From: Lachnospiraceae bacterium
GTDB lineage: Bacteria > Bacillota > Clostridia > Lachnospirales > Lachnospiraceae
DNA: 47,277 nucleotides
Direction of reading: 5' to 3'
Assembly: GCA_017441825.1 (NCBI GenBank)
Contig: JAFRVD010000028.1
Coordinates: 1-47,277, forward strand
Part shown: in pieces, positions 6,625-23,350 of the stretch
How positions within the stretch are numbered: the first letter of the stretch is position 1
Layout: each line of letters opens with the position of its first letter
Translations under genes and position numbers: made by a program
The notes under the pieces: model-generated
Told to the model about the DNA's origin: nothing
Database searches by the model: none
The model's input: the letters and a program-made list of their open reading frames with translations, nothing else

Positions 6625-6677
6625 AAAAAGAGGCGCTCATCCCAGACACTTCTGCCTGAAATGAACGCCTTTGCTCA
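6625..6677 (-). promoter_or_regulatory. attenuator hairpin in the pyrG leader (shared nitrogen leader motif)
   Basis: On the minus strand a 10-bp outer stem (arms 6670-6661 and 6640-6631, one G-U pair) encloses a 6-bp inner hairpin (CAGGCA/TGTCTG, loop GAAG) and is followed by six U (6630-6625), a canonical intrinsic terminator about 40 bases before the pyrG ATG. The 17 bases TGAGCAAAGGCGTTCAT (complement of 6661-6677) and the closing arm ATGAGCGCCT are identical to the glutamate synthase leader at 23298-23314 and 23339-23348. Control by readthrough is inferred. Confidence 0.75.
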
Positions 6678-6685
6678 CTTCCCAT

Positions 6686-6714
6686 ACTATACGCTATTCT
6701 CTTGAAAAAGTCAA
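6686..6714 (-). promoter_or_regulatory. sigma-A promoter of the pyrG operon
   Basis: On the minus strand, TTGACT (6714-6709), a 17-base spacer and TATAGT (6691-6686). The transcript should start near 6679, a few bases before the attenuator hairpin. Confidence 0.85.
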
Positions 6715-6766
6715 GCTTTATGCCTTCCCCCGCTGGGGTGCCCCCCAAAGGGGGCGGATGAGGGCC

Positions 6767-7975
6767 CTACGGCATTATACTCTCTATCACACTATTCGCA
6801 GCAGAAGCCGCGAGCATCGTAAGAGACTGATAGATCCCTTCGACGTAGATGACGACGATGAAGACGATGCCCACGATGGGGAGCGCCAGATCGATCAGAT
6901 TATTCTTGTGCGTCCTGGTATAGGAGAACAGGAGCATCACGGGAGCGGCGGCGACCAGGATCACGCTGTCGCCAATGCCCCAGGACTGGACCTTGGTGAA
7001 CAGATCGACGTAGTCGCTTTCCGGGATCCCCATAAGGACCGAGATCGCTGACGCAAGGAAGATCATGCCGATCACGTCCAAAATGGCCGCGATGACGAAC
7101 GTGACCGCGATAAAGACGGAAAAGTGGAGCGAATTCCGTCTGGTCTTCAGAAAATCACCGTACTGTTCATGTGTACCGCCCATTTTGATAAAGACCCGTT
7201 CCCTGAACTTGATGAACAGCGCCATGGCGATAAATGCGAAGAAGGTCATGGGCGGTTTGGTGGTGAGCAACGGGAACACCCAGAGCGGCAGGGTTATTTC
7301 ACCGAGACTCGACAGGATCTTTAATACGATACTTGCGGTTTCATAGGCCACAGGCAGGATGGAGAGCACCCGGAGGACGATGGTCCACTTTCCTTTCAGG
7401 ATCTTTTTCGGCCGGTAATTCAGGAGGAACATGAACAGCGTGCAGAGGAACAGGTCGATAAAAATATTGAAGGACAGGAAACCGCGGCCGCCGGAGACAA
7501 AGGAAAACGCCTTTCCGATCGCGGTCCGGGCTGCCTCCCGGCCGCCCATAAACAGGGCTGTCACGCCTAAAATGTACCGGTTATATACCAGCAGGCAGAC
7601 CACCAGGACCGCGGCACTGAGAAGGCCGTAGCGGAGCAGCTGCCTGGCGTAGCTTTCCCTTTTGTCCAGAATCAGGGCGAAGTTTCCGACCAGGAAGAAG
7701 GGCAGCGCAAGCCTGAAAAGGAGCGACAGGATTCTTGGCCAGCTGCCATAAAGCGACTCGCACGAAGGGTCGATCTTTATGTTCAGATTCATGAGTACCA
7801 GCACCTGAGACAGCGCGAGGCACACCCACGCCAGGATCTTCAGGGACCGATAGGAAAGCGGTCCACGGTAGCGGATATCCGGCCCGATGTTTTTTTCATA
7901 TCTTTTTCTGCGGCGCTTTTGCCTGCGGGAGAGCGGAGCCTGCTCCGCGGTATCGGCAGTTTTCTTTTTTGACAT
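6767..7975 (-). CDS. multi-pass membrane protein of unknown function
   Basis: 402 residues, no family recognised. The first 40 residues are strongly basic and polar (MSKKK, RRQKRRRKRYEK) and probably cytoplasmic. They are followed by roughly nine or ten hydrophobic segments, from about residue 45 to the end, separated by short loops with clustered positive charge. No catalytic motif stands out. AGGAGT precedes the ATG by a normal spacing. It lies 35 bases after the nitrilase-family gene and shares its promoter, so the two probably act together, perhaps a soluble amidase with a membrane carrier or acceptor; that link is only positional. A GC-rich hairpin without a T-tract lies just past its stop (6741-6757). 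Confidence 0.75.
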   Translation of the reverse strand: MSKKKTADTAEQAPLSRRQKRRRKRYEKNIGPDIRYRGPLSYRSLKILAWVCLALSQVLVLMNLNIKIDPSCESLYGSWPRILSLLFRLALPFFLVGNFALILDKRESYARQLLRYGLLSAAVLVVCLLVYNRYILGVTALFMGGREAARTAIGKAFSFVSGGRGFLSFNIFIDLFLCTLFMFLLNYRPKKILKGKWTIVLRVLSILPVAYETASIVLKILSSLGEITLPLWVFPLLTTKPPMTFFAFIAMALFIKFRERVFIKMGGTHEQYGDFLKTRRNSLHFSVFIAVTFVIAAILDVIGMIFLASAISVLMGIPESDYVDLFTKVQSWGIGDSVILVAAAPVMLLFSYTRTHKNNLIDLALPIVGIVFIVVIYVEGIYQSLTMLAASAANSVIESIMP

Positions 7976-8010
7976 TTACAGTACTCCTGAATTGATTAAA
8001 GCCTGCGGCT

Positions 8011-8802
8011 TCATGCGTACTTCCCGCCGTCCGCGTGAAGCAGCAGGTTTGAATATCGTCTGCGGCCCAGTTCACCAAAAGTCGGTGCCTGTTTCTCAAA
8101 ATTATAGATGAGCATCTCTTCCCGGTCTTTCTCAAGCTCGCTGCAGATTTTGCCGGAGGCATTGATAAAGCAGGTCGGCGCTGTCTGATTCGGACTGATG
8201 GCGTTGACCGAGAGCACGGGCGTAACATTCTCTACGGCTCTTGTGATCAGGTGGCCGAGGATCATCCGGTACCGGGTGTCATCGGCGGCGTCCGAAACGT
8301 CGTAAAACAGGACGACGTTCAGGTCCGTGTTCCTGAGGTACAGCTCCCTGAAATACTCGGGAAAGCGCACTTCGAAGCAGATCCTGACGCCGATCCTCAT
8401 GCCGGCAATATCAAATACACCGCATTCGGCGCCGGGCCTGAAGTTTTCTTCGTCCCAGCCGTAGAGCGCGCGTTTTCCGTACCACTTTGGCGGCTGCCCC
8501 GGCGAAAGGAGATACGCCCGGTTATAATAGTCTGAATCAGAGCAGGCGATGGTGCCAAGCATGATGTGAATGTTTGAAGTATCTGCTGTTTTCTGCAGCT
8601 CTTTTAGTGCTTCGCTAACAGCGTTCGTATCAACATTCTCTGATTTACCTATATCACGCGGGGGATAGCCTGTCAAGGCACATTCGGGGAACACGATCAA
8701 GTCGACGGCTTTCCCCGCCGCTTCATGAACAGCGTTTTTGATCACTGAAAGATTATGCTGTATATCGCCGCATACAGAAAATTGATATGCTGCCAGTTTC
8801 AT
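8011..8802 (-). CDS. carbon-nitrogen hydrolase (nitrilase superfamily)
   Basis: 263 residues. The nitrilase-superfamily catalytic triad is complete: Glu40 in VFPECALTG, Lys110 in WYGKRALYGW and Cys142 in GVRICFEVRFPE. Members cleave amides, ureides or nitriles. The short single-domain form with ICFEVRFPE resembles the omega-amidase/carbamoylputrescine amidase branch, but the substrate cannot be read from sequence. It is first in a two-gene minus-strand operon with the membrane protein and has its own promoter at 8874-8902. Given the nitrogen-rich neighbourhood, release of ammonia from an amide is a reasonable guess. Confidence 0.88.
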   Translation of the reverse strand: MKLAAYQFSVCGDIQHNLSVIKNAVHEAAGKAVDLIVFPECALTGYPPRDIGKSENVDTNAVSEALKELQKTADTSNIHIMLGTIACSDSDYYNRAYLLSPGQPPKWYGKRALYGWDEENFRPGAECGVFDIAGMRIGVRICFEVRFPEYFRELYLRNTDLNVVLFYDVSDAADDTRYRMILGHLITRAVENVTPVLSVNAISPNQTAPTCFINASGKICSELEKDREEMLIYNFEKQAPTFGELGRRRYSNLLLHADGGKYA

Positions 8803-8873
8803 GGCGGGGTCTCCTTATCATTCCATATCCATTATGCTTATTGCAGGAGCGGCATTGGATACATTGTTCCTGC

Positions 8874-8902
8874 AGTATAACAGGTCTTTTGAGCATAATC
8901 AA
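8874..8902 (-). promoter_or_regulatory. sigma-A promoter of the nitrilase operon
   Basis: On the minus strand, TTGATT (8902-8897), a 17-base spacer and TATACT (8879-8874), giving a leader of roughly 65 bases before the ATG at 8802. Confidence 0.75.
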
Positions 8903-23022: not shown

Positions 23023-23063
23023 GTTTTTCATACCTCCTCATTTTTTTGATCGAATAATGAATA

Positions 23064-23198
23064 AAGGCAAAGACTCCTCTTGCGTGAACACAAAAGACGC
23101 CTTTGCCTTCTTTTAATTTTGTATTCGACCGGGCAGCCCTTTCCCAGTGGGAAATGAGAAAGGGCGCCTTCGAGTCACATCACTCAAAGACGCCCTTG
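23064..23198 (-). promoter_or_regulatory. glnN leader with two related hairpins and an alternative pairing
   Basis: On the minus strand, hairpin 1 (arms 23195-23182 and 23175-23162) has a 14-bp stem, three of its pairs G-U, and a six-base loop GATGTG. Hairpin 2 (arms 23109-23101 and 23072-23064) has a 9-bp closing stem with further internal pairing. Both start with closely similar sequence, GGCAAGGGCGTCTTTG and GGCAAAGGCGTCTTTT. The GCCCTTT at the end of hairpin 1 (23165-23159) is also perfectly complementary to AAAGGGC at 23142-23136, so hairpin 1 can be replaced by an alternative fold. A small hairpin lies at 23140-23154. This looks like a switchable attenuator; neither hairpin has a long U-tract. 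Confidence 0.6.
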
Positions 23199-23213
23199 CC
23201 TTTACAAGGCGCT

Positions 23214-23242
23214 ATCATACAACACTCGCGAAAACTTGTCAA
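23214..23242 (-). promoter_or_regulatory. sigma-A promoter of the glnN-guaA operon
   Basis: On the minus strand, TTGACA (23242-23237), a 17-base spacer and TATGAT (23219-23214). The start is predicted near 23207, giving a leader of about 185 bases before the glnN ATG. Confidence 0.88.
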
Positions 23243-23266
23243 CCATAAATTTTCCGAGGTTGACAA
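23236..23266. promoter_or_regulatory. inverted repeat spanning the divergent -35 boxes
   Basis: TTGTCAACC (23236-23244) and its exact complement GGTTGACAA (23258-23266) flank 13 AT-rich bases between the glnN and glutamate synthase promoters. Part of the symmetry is simply two TTGACA boxes, but it extends two bases beyond each, so a shared regulator site is possible. Confidence 0.4.
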
Positions 23267-23288
23267 AACGGGCCGATGGGCATATAAT
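23260..23288 (+). promoter_or_regulatory. consensus sigma-A promoter of the glutamate synthase operon
   Basis: TTGACA (23260-23265), a 17-base spacer and TATAAT (23283-23288): perfect consensus at both boxes. Such a strong core promoter would be consistent with control exerted after initiation, in the leader. Confidence 0.92.
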
Positions 23289-23297
23289 CCCTTCATA

Positions 23298-23350
23298 TGA
23301 GCAAAGGCGTTCATGTACGCGGGGTTTCCCTGCGCGGCATGAGCGCCTTT
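23298..23350 (+). promoter_or_regulatory. leader hairpin of the glutamate synthase operon (shared nitrogen leader motif)
   Basis: A 13-bp outer stem (23303-23315 with 23338-23350, one G-T pair) encloses a 7-bp inner hairpin (23318-23324 with 23328-23334). TTTAATATTTT follows, a loose terminator tail. The first 17 bases (23298-23314) are identical to the pyrG leader, while the inner hairpin differs, so the outer stem is the conserved part. An ATG at 23297 lies in frame with the gene but has no ribosome site and would be buried in this structure. Confidence 0.7.

Follow-up and report, generated by a model that had tools for sequence, protein, structure and literature searches.

Transcript-start hexaloop hairpins before nitrogen and glutamine genes of Lachnospiraceae, and their probable reading by an ANTAR protein

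Introduction

ANTAR proteins bind RNA through a hexanucleotide loop with A at position 1 and G at position 4 (Ramesh 2012, PMC3369931). In the dual motif described for these proteins each hexaloop must be contacted to prevent termination, and the single hexaloop is presented as the minimal binding motif, the role of which needs further work (Walshe 2022, PMC8934654). Hairpins of this kind occur in a 47,277-nucleotide stretch of DNA from a Lachnospiraceae bacterium (assembly GCA_017441825.1, contig JAFRVD010000028.1, positions 1 to 47,277; "the window" below means this whole stretch), where they precede the CTP synthase gene pyrG, the glutamate synthase genes (glt operon, gltB leader) and glnN, the gene of a type III glutamine synthetase (GS). 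We conclude that these three leaders are most probably transcription attenuators read by the ANTAR protein encoded at 29670-30254, and that they belong to a nitrogen/glutamine regulon.

Glutamate and glutamine synthase genes are already reported to be preceded by ANTAR targets (Ramesh 2012, PMC3369931), so that nitrogen control by ANTAR proteins is not new in itself. The leaders share with the dual-hexaloop systems of EutV from Enterococcus faecalis, NasR and AmiR the A1/G4 hexaloop, a hairpin exclusive with an intrinsic terminator, an ANTAR gene in the genome and nitrogen genes downstream. They differ in having mostly one hexaloop per terminator, at the transcript start and without a P1 hairpin at a 5-12 nt linker, and in a loop that in most cases reads AANGGC and is closed by a C-G pair; the receiver domain of the protein, unlike that of EutV, lacks the phospho-accepting Asp. 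In Clostridium saccharobutylicum, NitR is an ANTAR antiterminator of the GS and glutamate synthase (GOGAT) genes at nitrogen limitation (PMC6316151). The system described here resembles it in that an ANTAR protein would control the same two kinds of gene. In contrast to NitR, the regulon would reach pyrG, purF, carA, guaA, gdhA and asnB, and the ANTAR-linked GS is often catalytically altered.

Two further precedents concern the sensing of the signal. In the GS-GlnR and GS-TnrA circuits GS itself acts as the glutamine sensor (Travis 2022, PMC9249791), and AmiC-AmiR (PMC3369936, PMC8934654) and NasS-NasT are sensor-antiterminator pairs; AmiR is a pseudo-REC protein (Walshe 2022, PMC8934654). As in the former, a glutamine synthetase is paired with a regulator in what is here a predicted operon, but the regulator is an RNA-binding-type ANTAR protein and not the DNA-binding GlnR or TnrA. 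As in AmiC-AmiR and NasS-NasT, the ANTAR regulator is proposed to be worked by a partner protein, and AmiR likewise has a pseudo-receiver; the proposed partner is a relative of glutamine synthetase instead of an amide- or nitrate-binding protein.

Alternative folds in the pyrG, glt and glnN leaders

The initial annotation of the window had pointed to a 17-mer, TGAGCAAAGGCGTTCAT, and a closing arm, ATGAGCGCCT, common to the pyrG and glutamate synthase leaders. Both are indeed there, the 17-mer lying at 23298-23314 on the forward strand and at 6661-6677 on the reverse strand. Its 16-mer core occurs exactly at these two leaders only in the 2.6 Mb assembly, which rules out a genome-wide repeat or mobile element; with 2 mismatches it is found at two further places. 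The fold energies of the pyrG and glt leaders (z -4.95 and -4.76) and of the glnN leader (z -9.5) beat all 200 dinucleotide shuffles. The two hairpins announced for the glnN leader are present, and the pyrG copy is the textbook terminator that it had been called, ending in CTTTTTT. The U-tract of the gltB copy in the window, AATATTTTAT, is weaker; in the gltB leaders of four same-genus genomes (L007, L009, L010 and L011) the closing run of T is clear.

The same annotation saw the common feature in an outer stem drawn around unrelated inner hairpins. This stem exists and its inner hairpin does vary, but it proved to be the terminator half of a two-state switch, and the recognition element is likely to be an overlapping hexaloop hairpin that had been missed. 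Taken alone, the shared 17-mer reads as an inverted repeat, (AU)AUGAGC[AAAGGC]GUUCAU(GU), which gives the hairpin AUGAGC[AAAGGC]GUUCAU before gltB and GAAGUGAGC[AAAGGC]GUUCAUUUC, with a stem of 9 bp, before pyrG. The glnN hairpins follow the same pattern with other stem letters (AAAGGC[AAGGGC]GUCUUU and GAAGGC[AAAGGC]GUCUUU). All loops in the window are 6 nt long with A at position 1 and G at position 4 (AAAGGC or AAGGGC), and stems measure 6-9 bp. There is one hexaloop in the gltB leader, one in the pyrG leader and two, 93 nt apart and each with its own terminator, in the glnN leader. Because the loop and 3' arm of each hexaloop hairpin double as the 5' arm of an intrinsic terminator, the two structures are mutually exclusive. 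Each of the three leaders is preceded by a near-consensus promoter with a 17-base spacer. An ATG at 23297 falls within the glt leader, and the first glt gene was taken as 23396..24490.

When the window was scanned with lax settings (hexaloop stem of at least 6 bp, terminator of at least 9 bp), 3 matches came up, every one within these leaders, against a mean of 1.15 in 20 Markov simulations, 2 of which reached 3. The second glnN hairpin escaped the scan because its terminator stem is bulged. The count from a single window is by itself not decisive; what decides is how long the stems are, in which gene contexts they lie and that they recur in other genomes. The classic dual-hexaloop motif was also considered and rejected: with stems down to 3 bp admitted, no second loop was found in the gltB leaders of five genomes, and the only one in the pyrG leader is a 3-bp ATCGGG hairpin about 60 nt further on, past the terminator.

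Conservation in the genus and the family

Five same-genus genomes, including that of the window, were scanned for A1/G4 hexaloops with a stem of at least 5 bp. One was found in every gltB leader, at both glnN positions in all five genomes and in the pyrG leader of the window, which makes 16 elements; the four other genomes, each with the gltB element and both glnN hairpins, are the L007, L009, L010 and L011 already mentioned. A further same-genus genome (G002, L028) has the gltB element and one glnN element. Over the 16 elements the hexaloop stem is paired in 97.9% of cases, with three pairs showing two-sided change, and the terminator in 94.2%, with five such pairs. The two-sided changes in the hexaloop stem split the gltB/pyrG group from the glnN group and therefore represent few events. 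Exact words by themselves are weak evidence: a 13-mer gave 10 matches in 8 of 41 related genomes, its reversed pattern gave 6, and the true-pattern matches in L005, L006 and L013 look like chance in coding sequence.

A covariance model search of Lachnospiraceae, the check that the annotation had proposed, found copies recurring before nitrogen and glutamine genes, with a hexaloop stem that covaries. The model (R1) describes the terminator and treats the 5' arm of the hexaloop as unpaired. In its own genome the four window sites score highest, followed by a site on another contig with gdhA next to it, and 97 of 150 family genomes have a match at E<=0.1. We examined 97 sites among the matches listed and from the own genome, the four training sites of the window and opposite-strand echoes of the same palindromes having been dropped; this set stops near E 0.006, with one own-genome site (L021, E 0.02) kept. 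Across these sites the hexaloop stem is paired in 84.5% of cells (73.8% when shuffled, at most 55% when slid) and reaches a covariation score of 0.51 (0.31 shuffled, at most 0.21 slid). Among 96 distinct rows one stem pair is AU in 54, GC in 37 and GU in 5, hence never broken, and another is GU in 39. A1 and G4 of the loop are kept at 94 and 96 of the 97 sites, a figure that is partly ascertainment. The pattern C[ANNGNN]G with at least 3 bp is present at 90 sites and absent at 7, and R1 also matches plain terminators at weak scores. Conservation of the element is confined to the 6-nt loop, for the most part AANGGC closed by C-G, and the 4 or so base pairs that close it; the inner hairpin is variable in sequence and size.

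A promoter score of at least 9/12 was obtained upstream of 69 of 89 listed sites, compared with 26 of 89 after shuffling. At a threshold of 8/12 the numbers are 82 and 65, and at 64 of the 82 the loop begins 9-17 nt past the end of the -10 box, so that the hexaloop usually stands at the very start of the transcript.

Nitrogen or glutamine genes come next at 74 of the 97 listed sites: glnN at 20, glutamate synthase genes at 14, amtB and GS-like genes at 10 each, gdhA at 5, asnB at 4, pyrG at 3, purF and glnQ-like genes at 2 each, and carA, guaA, purC and ureA at one each. Of the remainder, 9 precede other identified genes and 14 have none identified, one of these (L093) carrying an ammonium transporter fragment by Pfam. 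The copies before gdhA in the own genome and before amtB, asnB, GS-like genes, purF, carA and guaA in relatives are what makes this a nitrogen/glutamine regulon. The pyrG sites belong to three other genera (L081, L083 and L091), where the hexaloop stems are 5, 4 and 3 bp long. As a separate observation, in three genomes (L038, L079 and L086) an element-like site lies ahead of the gene for a circularly permuted ATP-grasp type 2 protein, which may mark an uncharacterised nitrogen operon.

Association with the ANTAR gene

The ANTAR domain PF03861 is found in 131 of the 150 family genomes, nearly always in one copy. At E<=0.1, R1 matches occur in 96 of these 131 genomes and in 1 of the 19 without the domain (p ~1e-8, phylogeny ignored); at E<=0.01 the figures are 71 of 131 and 0 of 19. 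The sole ANTAR-less family genome with a match (G158) has a plain terminator and no hexaloop.

A further test did without the RNA model. Eighty loci (731 kb) were collected by means of the ANTAR protein, not the RNA, and searched for hexaloop hairpins of whatever loop sequence that overlap a terminator. A1/G4 loops made up 28 of the 78 attenuator-like hairpins, where 4.9 would be expected at 1/16. For 21 of these, a homologue of any of 14 proteins encoded in the window follows within 450 nt, which is how preceding a nitrogen gene was defined; the same holds for 2 of the 50 hairpins with other loops (p ~4e-11, a value that overstates independence since the loci are related). All 21 target homologues are glnN, gltB or GS-like.

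The protein itself scores 55.2 bits against PF03861 (curated cut-off 27.3), and its structure matches are 1s8n (Rv1626), 6wsh (EutV), 1qo0 (AmiR) and 4akk (a nitrate regulator). Its N-terminal domain is receiver-like by profile. The position of the phospho-acceptor Asp is occupied by Asn in 24 of 24 close relatives, and among 25 wider relatives by Asn in 21 and by Asp in none; a kinase should therefore not drive this protein. The RNA-contact residues of EutV include K149, E160 and M172, and Tyr164 stacks on G4 (Walshe 2022, PMC8934654). Mapped through the structure-match alignment (the numbering of the paper runs two below that of the chain), Lys149, Glu160 and Met172 align with the invariant Lys153, Glu164 and Met176, an observation in favour of the leaders being read by this protein.

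A glutamine synthetase relative as candidate sensor

The gene directly upstream of the ANTAR gene encodes a glutamine-synthetase-like protein. It holds this position in 73 of the 80 loci (71 complete or nearly so, 2 cut by the contig end), and in the other 7 the ANTAR gene starts within 95 bases of a contig end. In a second set it lies upstream on the same strand in 60 of 61 loci, the remaining one being cut at 1,011 bases. The two genes are thus adjacent in every locus where the contig extends far enough and form a predicted operon in which a GS gene would stand with its regulator. Suipraeoptans intestinalis (L224), a cultured relative, is one of the carriers of the pair.

In B. subtilis GS the catalytic glutamate of the E flap is Glu304 (Travis 2022, PMC9249791). 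Its counterpart here is replaced by Lys in 70 and by Arg in 1 of 71 close relatives, a difference from the GS of the GlnR and TnrA circuits. Across relatives, ANTAR-linked GS proteins range from intact to having lost several catalytic residues. We checked nine positions, which we take to be the catalytic ones (D50 left aside, as well as two further marks for which no position was found): all nine are kept in 26 of 135 ANTAR-linked GS proteins, some genomes being counted twice. By analogy with the way GS serves GlnR, the GS-like protein may be the glutamine sensor of the ANTAR protein.

It is quite possible, if somewhat short of an even bet, that the GS-like protein is instead an ordinary or altered-substrate ligase and that the ANTAR protein is set by something else, for example the PII domain fused to AmtB. 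Such a fusion is encoded in the same window, and about half of the ANTAR-linked GS proteins of a second clade (20 of 39, L238-L277) keep all nine residues. On the other hand, adjacency to the ANTAR gene has been kept although a quick tree of 76 rows shows at least 8-9 changes at the checked positions (Glu to Asp counted), and operons that pair GS as a sensor with its regulator are known from GlnR. Moreover, GSIII is present in 148 of the 150 family genomes, and the ANTAR-linked GS is therefore spare. For the full proposal, namely that a GS relative with catalytic residues lost in many lineages acts purely as sensor for a dead-receiver ANTAR protein, which reads single transcript-start hexaloops in a regulon extending from ammonium uptake to pyrG, purF, carA and guaA in Lachnospiraceae and related Clostridia, we regard the chances as evenly balanced.

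Table 1. Features of the pyrG, glt, glnN and ANTAR loci, numbered as in the window
Feature	Position	Strand	Basis or remark
pyrG promoter, -35 TTGACT, 17-base spacer	6709..6714	-	consensus-based prediction
pyrG promoter, -10 TATAGT	6686..6691	-	consensus-based prediction
pyrG antiterminator hairpin GAAGTGAGC[AAAGGC]GTTCATTTC, hexaloop A1/G4	6658..6681	-	predicted fold
pyrG leader intrinsic terminator, 18 bp and U-tract	6624..6670	-	exclusive with hexaloop hairpin
pyrG, CTP synthase (glutamine-dependent)	4965..6584	-	
glt operon promoter, -35 TTGACA, 17-base spacer	23260..23265	+	predicted
glt operon promoter, -10 TATAAT	23283..23288	+	predicted
glt antiterminator hairpin ATATGAGC[AAAGGC]GTTCATGT, hexaloop A1/G4	23295..23316	+	predicted fold
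glt leader terminator hairpin and weak U-tract	23303..23360	+	
Glutamate synthase amidotransferase subunit, first glt operon gene	23396..24490	+	
Glutamate synthase FMN subunit	24490..25995	+	
glnN promoter, -35 TTGACA	23237..23242	-	predicted
glnN promoter, -10 TATGAT	23214-23219	-	predicted
glnN hexaloop hairpin 1, TAAAGGC[AAGGGC]GTCTTTG	23185..23204	-	terminator partner 23160-23197
glnN hexaloop hairpin 2, AGAAGGC[AAAGGC]GTCTTTT	23092..23111	-	terminator partner ~23058-23113
glnN, glutamine synthetase type III	20926..23031	-	
Glutamine-synthetase-like protein, catalytic flap Glu to Lys	28423..29634	+	proposed sensor
ANTAR regulator with pseudo-receiver domain	29670..30254	+	profile match; proposed RNA-binding antiterminator

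Neighbouring genes

Downstream of glnN, on the same strand, follow an amtB-PII fusion, asnB, glmS, purC, purA and purB. The fusion (19182-20912) is an ammonium transporter with a C-terminal P-II domain and possibly a second nitrogen sensor. The end of the ANTAR gene is overlapped by a gene (30251-37063) for a two-module non-ribosomal peptide synthetase of 2270 aa, which resembles the aureusimine synthetase AusA and scores below the cut-off of the AusA model. Adjoining it is a SpoIIE/RssB-like phosphatase with an RsbW-like C-terminal part (37412-39550). The same assembly also holds a second, partial pyrG, 85% identical (G000:C25:11712-12935), which may reflect a mixed metagenome-assembled genome or a paralogue.

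Proposed mechanism

Within about the first 20-30 nt after the promoter, the polymerase would make a hairpin of 6-9 bp capped by an A1/G4 hexaloop. Left unbound, this hairpin would yield to the overlapping intrinsic terminator and transcription would stop; held by active ANTAR protein, it would keep the terminator from forming and the operon would be read. The glnN gene would be under two of these attenuators, one after the other, and the glt operon and pyrG under a single one each. At low nitrogen the ANTAR protein would be freed or activated and allow readthrough, and at high nitrogen the terminator would win, a direction that we propose by analogy with NitR of Clostridium saccharobutylicum. 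The switch acting on the pseudo-receiver ANTAR protein may be the GS-like protein.

Observations that weigh against ANTAR control

A number of observations speak against this mechanism or limit its reach. The ANTAR antiterminators known so far depend on a pair of hexaloops separated by 5-12 nt, and EutV requires both (Ramesh 2012, PMC3369931). At 89 of 90 listed sites there is no second hexaloop within about 40 nt upstream, and one within 150 nt downstream was seen at 10 of the 90, 3 of them within 50 nt. Tyr164 of EutV, the residue that stacks on G4, aligns with an invariant His, and two of the five covariation measures (the number of pairs with two-sided change and the pair types) are not clearly above shuffles. 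No R1 match was found in 35 of the 131 ANTAR-bearing family genomes.

At the level of the order, 57 of 196 genomes have an R1 match at E<=0.01 and 132 have the ANTAR gene, but matches occur in 9 of the 64 genomes without it as well as in 48 of the 132 with it. The best sites of all nine ANTAR-less genomes were inspected, the matches in ANTAR-bearing genomes in part. Seven of the nine have no convincing hexaloop; one of these, G191, has a weak 4-bp hexaloop closed by U-G and no nitrogen gene identified. The other two, G245 and G349, carry convincing elements before glnN and amtB, and the ANTAR gene is present in other genomes of both their genera. In a strict scan for contiguous terminators the A1/G4 element preceded only 9 of 38 deeper GS-ANTAR operons, so that autoregulation is seen for some genomes only.

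A survey of the genus brought 10 pyrG starts into view (3 more matches lacked the start, and L153 is only 62% identical), and a clean element is found at one of the 10, that of the window. In L149 and L150 a transcript-start terminator lies ~100 nt upstream of pyrG, with the loop AACGAC or AATGAC and one stem mismatch, and these appear to be decayed or variant elements. L155 has a different hairpin, and none of the other six leaders holds a convincing one. Finally, there is no obvious reason for raising the expression of glutamine consumers at low nitrogen.

Other explanations of the leaders

A reading of the inverted repeats as constitutive terminators of the ordinary kind, or as the DNA operator of a repressor acting near the promoter, is very unlikely. 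The element does lie a short way past the -10 box, a place that would suit an operator, terminators are common, and the model retrieves plain ones too. However, the hexaloop stem covaries as RNA and includes the G-U pairs noted above, for which an operator in DNA has no need, a terminator placed between promoter and gene would serve no purpose if it were not regulated, and neither reading accounts for the specificity of the A1/G4 loop or its co-occurrence with the ANTAR gene.

A second possibility concerns pyrG alone. In Bacillus subtilis, pyrG is controlled by CTP-sensitive reiterative transcription, in which the initial transcript is GGGC and the C stalls the polymerase. Were the pyrG of the window governed in this way, its hexaloop match would be accidental, which we hold to be slightly less credible still. 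The terminator at the transcript start, a predicted start at a GGG run and the lack of a clean element in the other same-genus pyrG leaders would fit; the predicted (unmapped) start GGGAAG is, however, without that C, the hairpin is a 9-bp A1/G4 hexaloop having 17 letters in common with the glt leader, and pyrG sites of the model recur in three other genera.

That a metabolite-binding riboswitch for glutamine or a nucleotide switches the terminator directly can practically be discounted, in spite of the glutamine genes, conserved structured leaders and strong folds, as Rfam covariance models, glutamine riboswitches included, gave 0 matches in the window at gathering score, the conserved fold is only a short hairpin competing with the terminator around a variable inner hairpin, and the elements track the ANTAR gene.

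ANTAR control is thus the branch that survives of the alternative with which the annotation had left its RNA-level glutamine/nitrogen regulon, an ANTAR protein or a riboswitch, and it is strongly supported by the hexaloop signature, covariation, recurrence before nitrogen genes and ANTAR co-occurrence.

Significance

No precedent for a natural single-hexaloop ANTAR antitermination regulon was found in the literature compared. Likewise, among the top-ranked results of the literature search, which included few subscription papers, there was neither a description of ANTAR control of Lachnospiraceae nitrogen genes nor a case in which an inactive GS serves as sensor. The features that seem to be new are the single-hexaloop architecture at the transcript start, the reach to nucleotide amidotransferases, the family-wide extent of the regulon and the altered GS partner. 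The many natural single-hexaloop sites at transcript starts are a case of the kind for which further work had been called for (Walshe 2022, PMC8934654); if the proposal is true, they would make up a natural single-hexaloop ANTAR antitermination regulon. A GS relative is pointed to as the sensor in an RNA-based circuit, which would then correspond, at the level of RNA, to the GS-GlnR circuit. The nitrogen genes of Lachnospiraceae, a major group of gut bacteria, would be under a family-wide regulon with a precise sequence signature.

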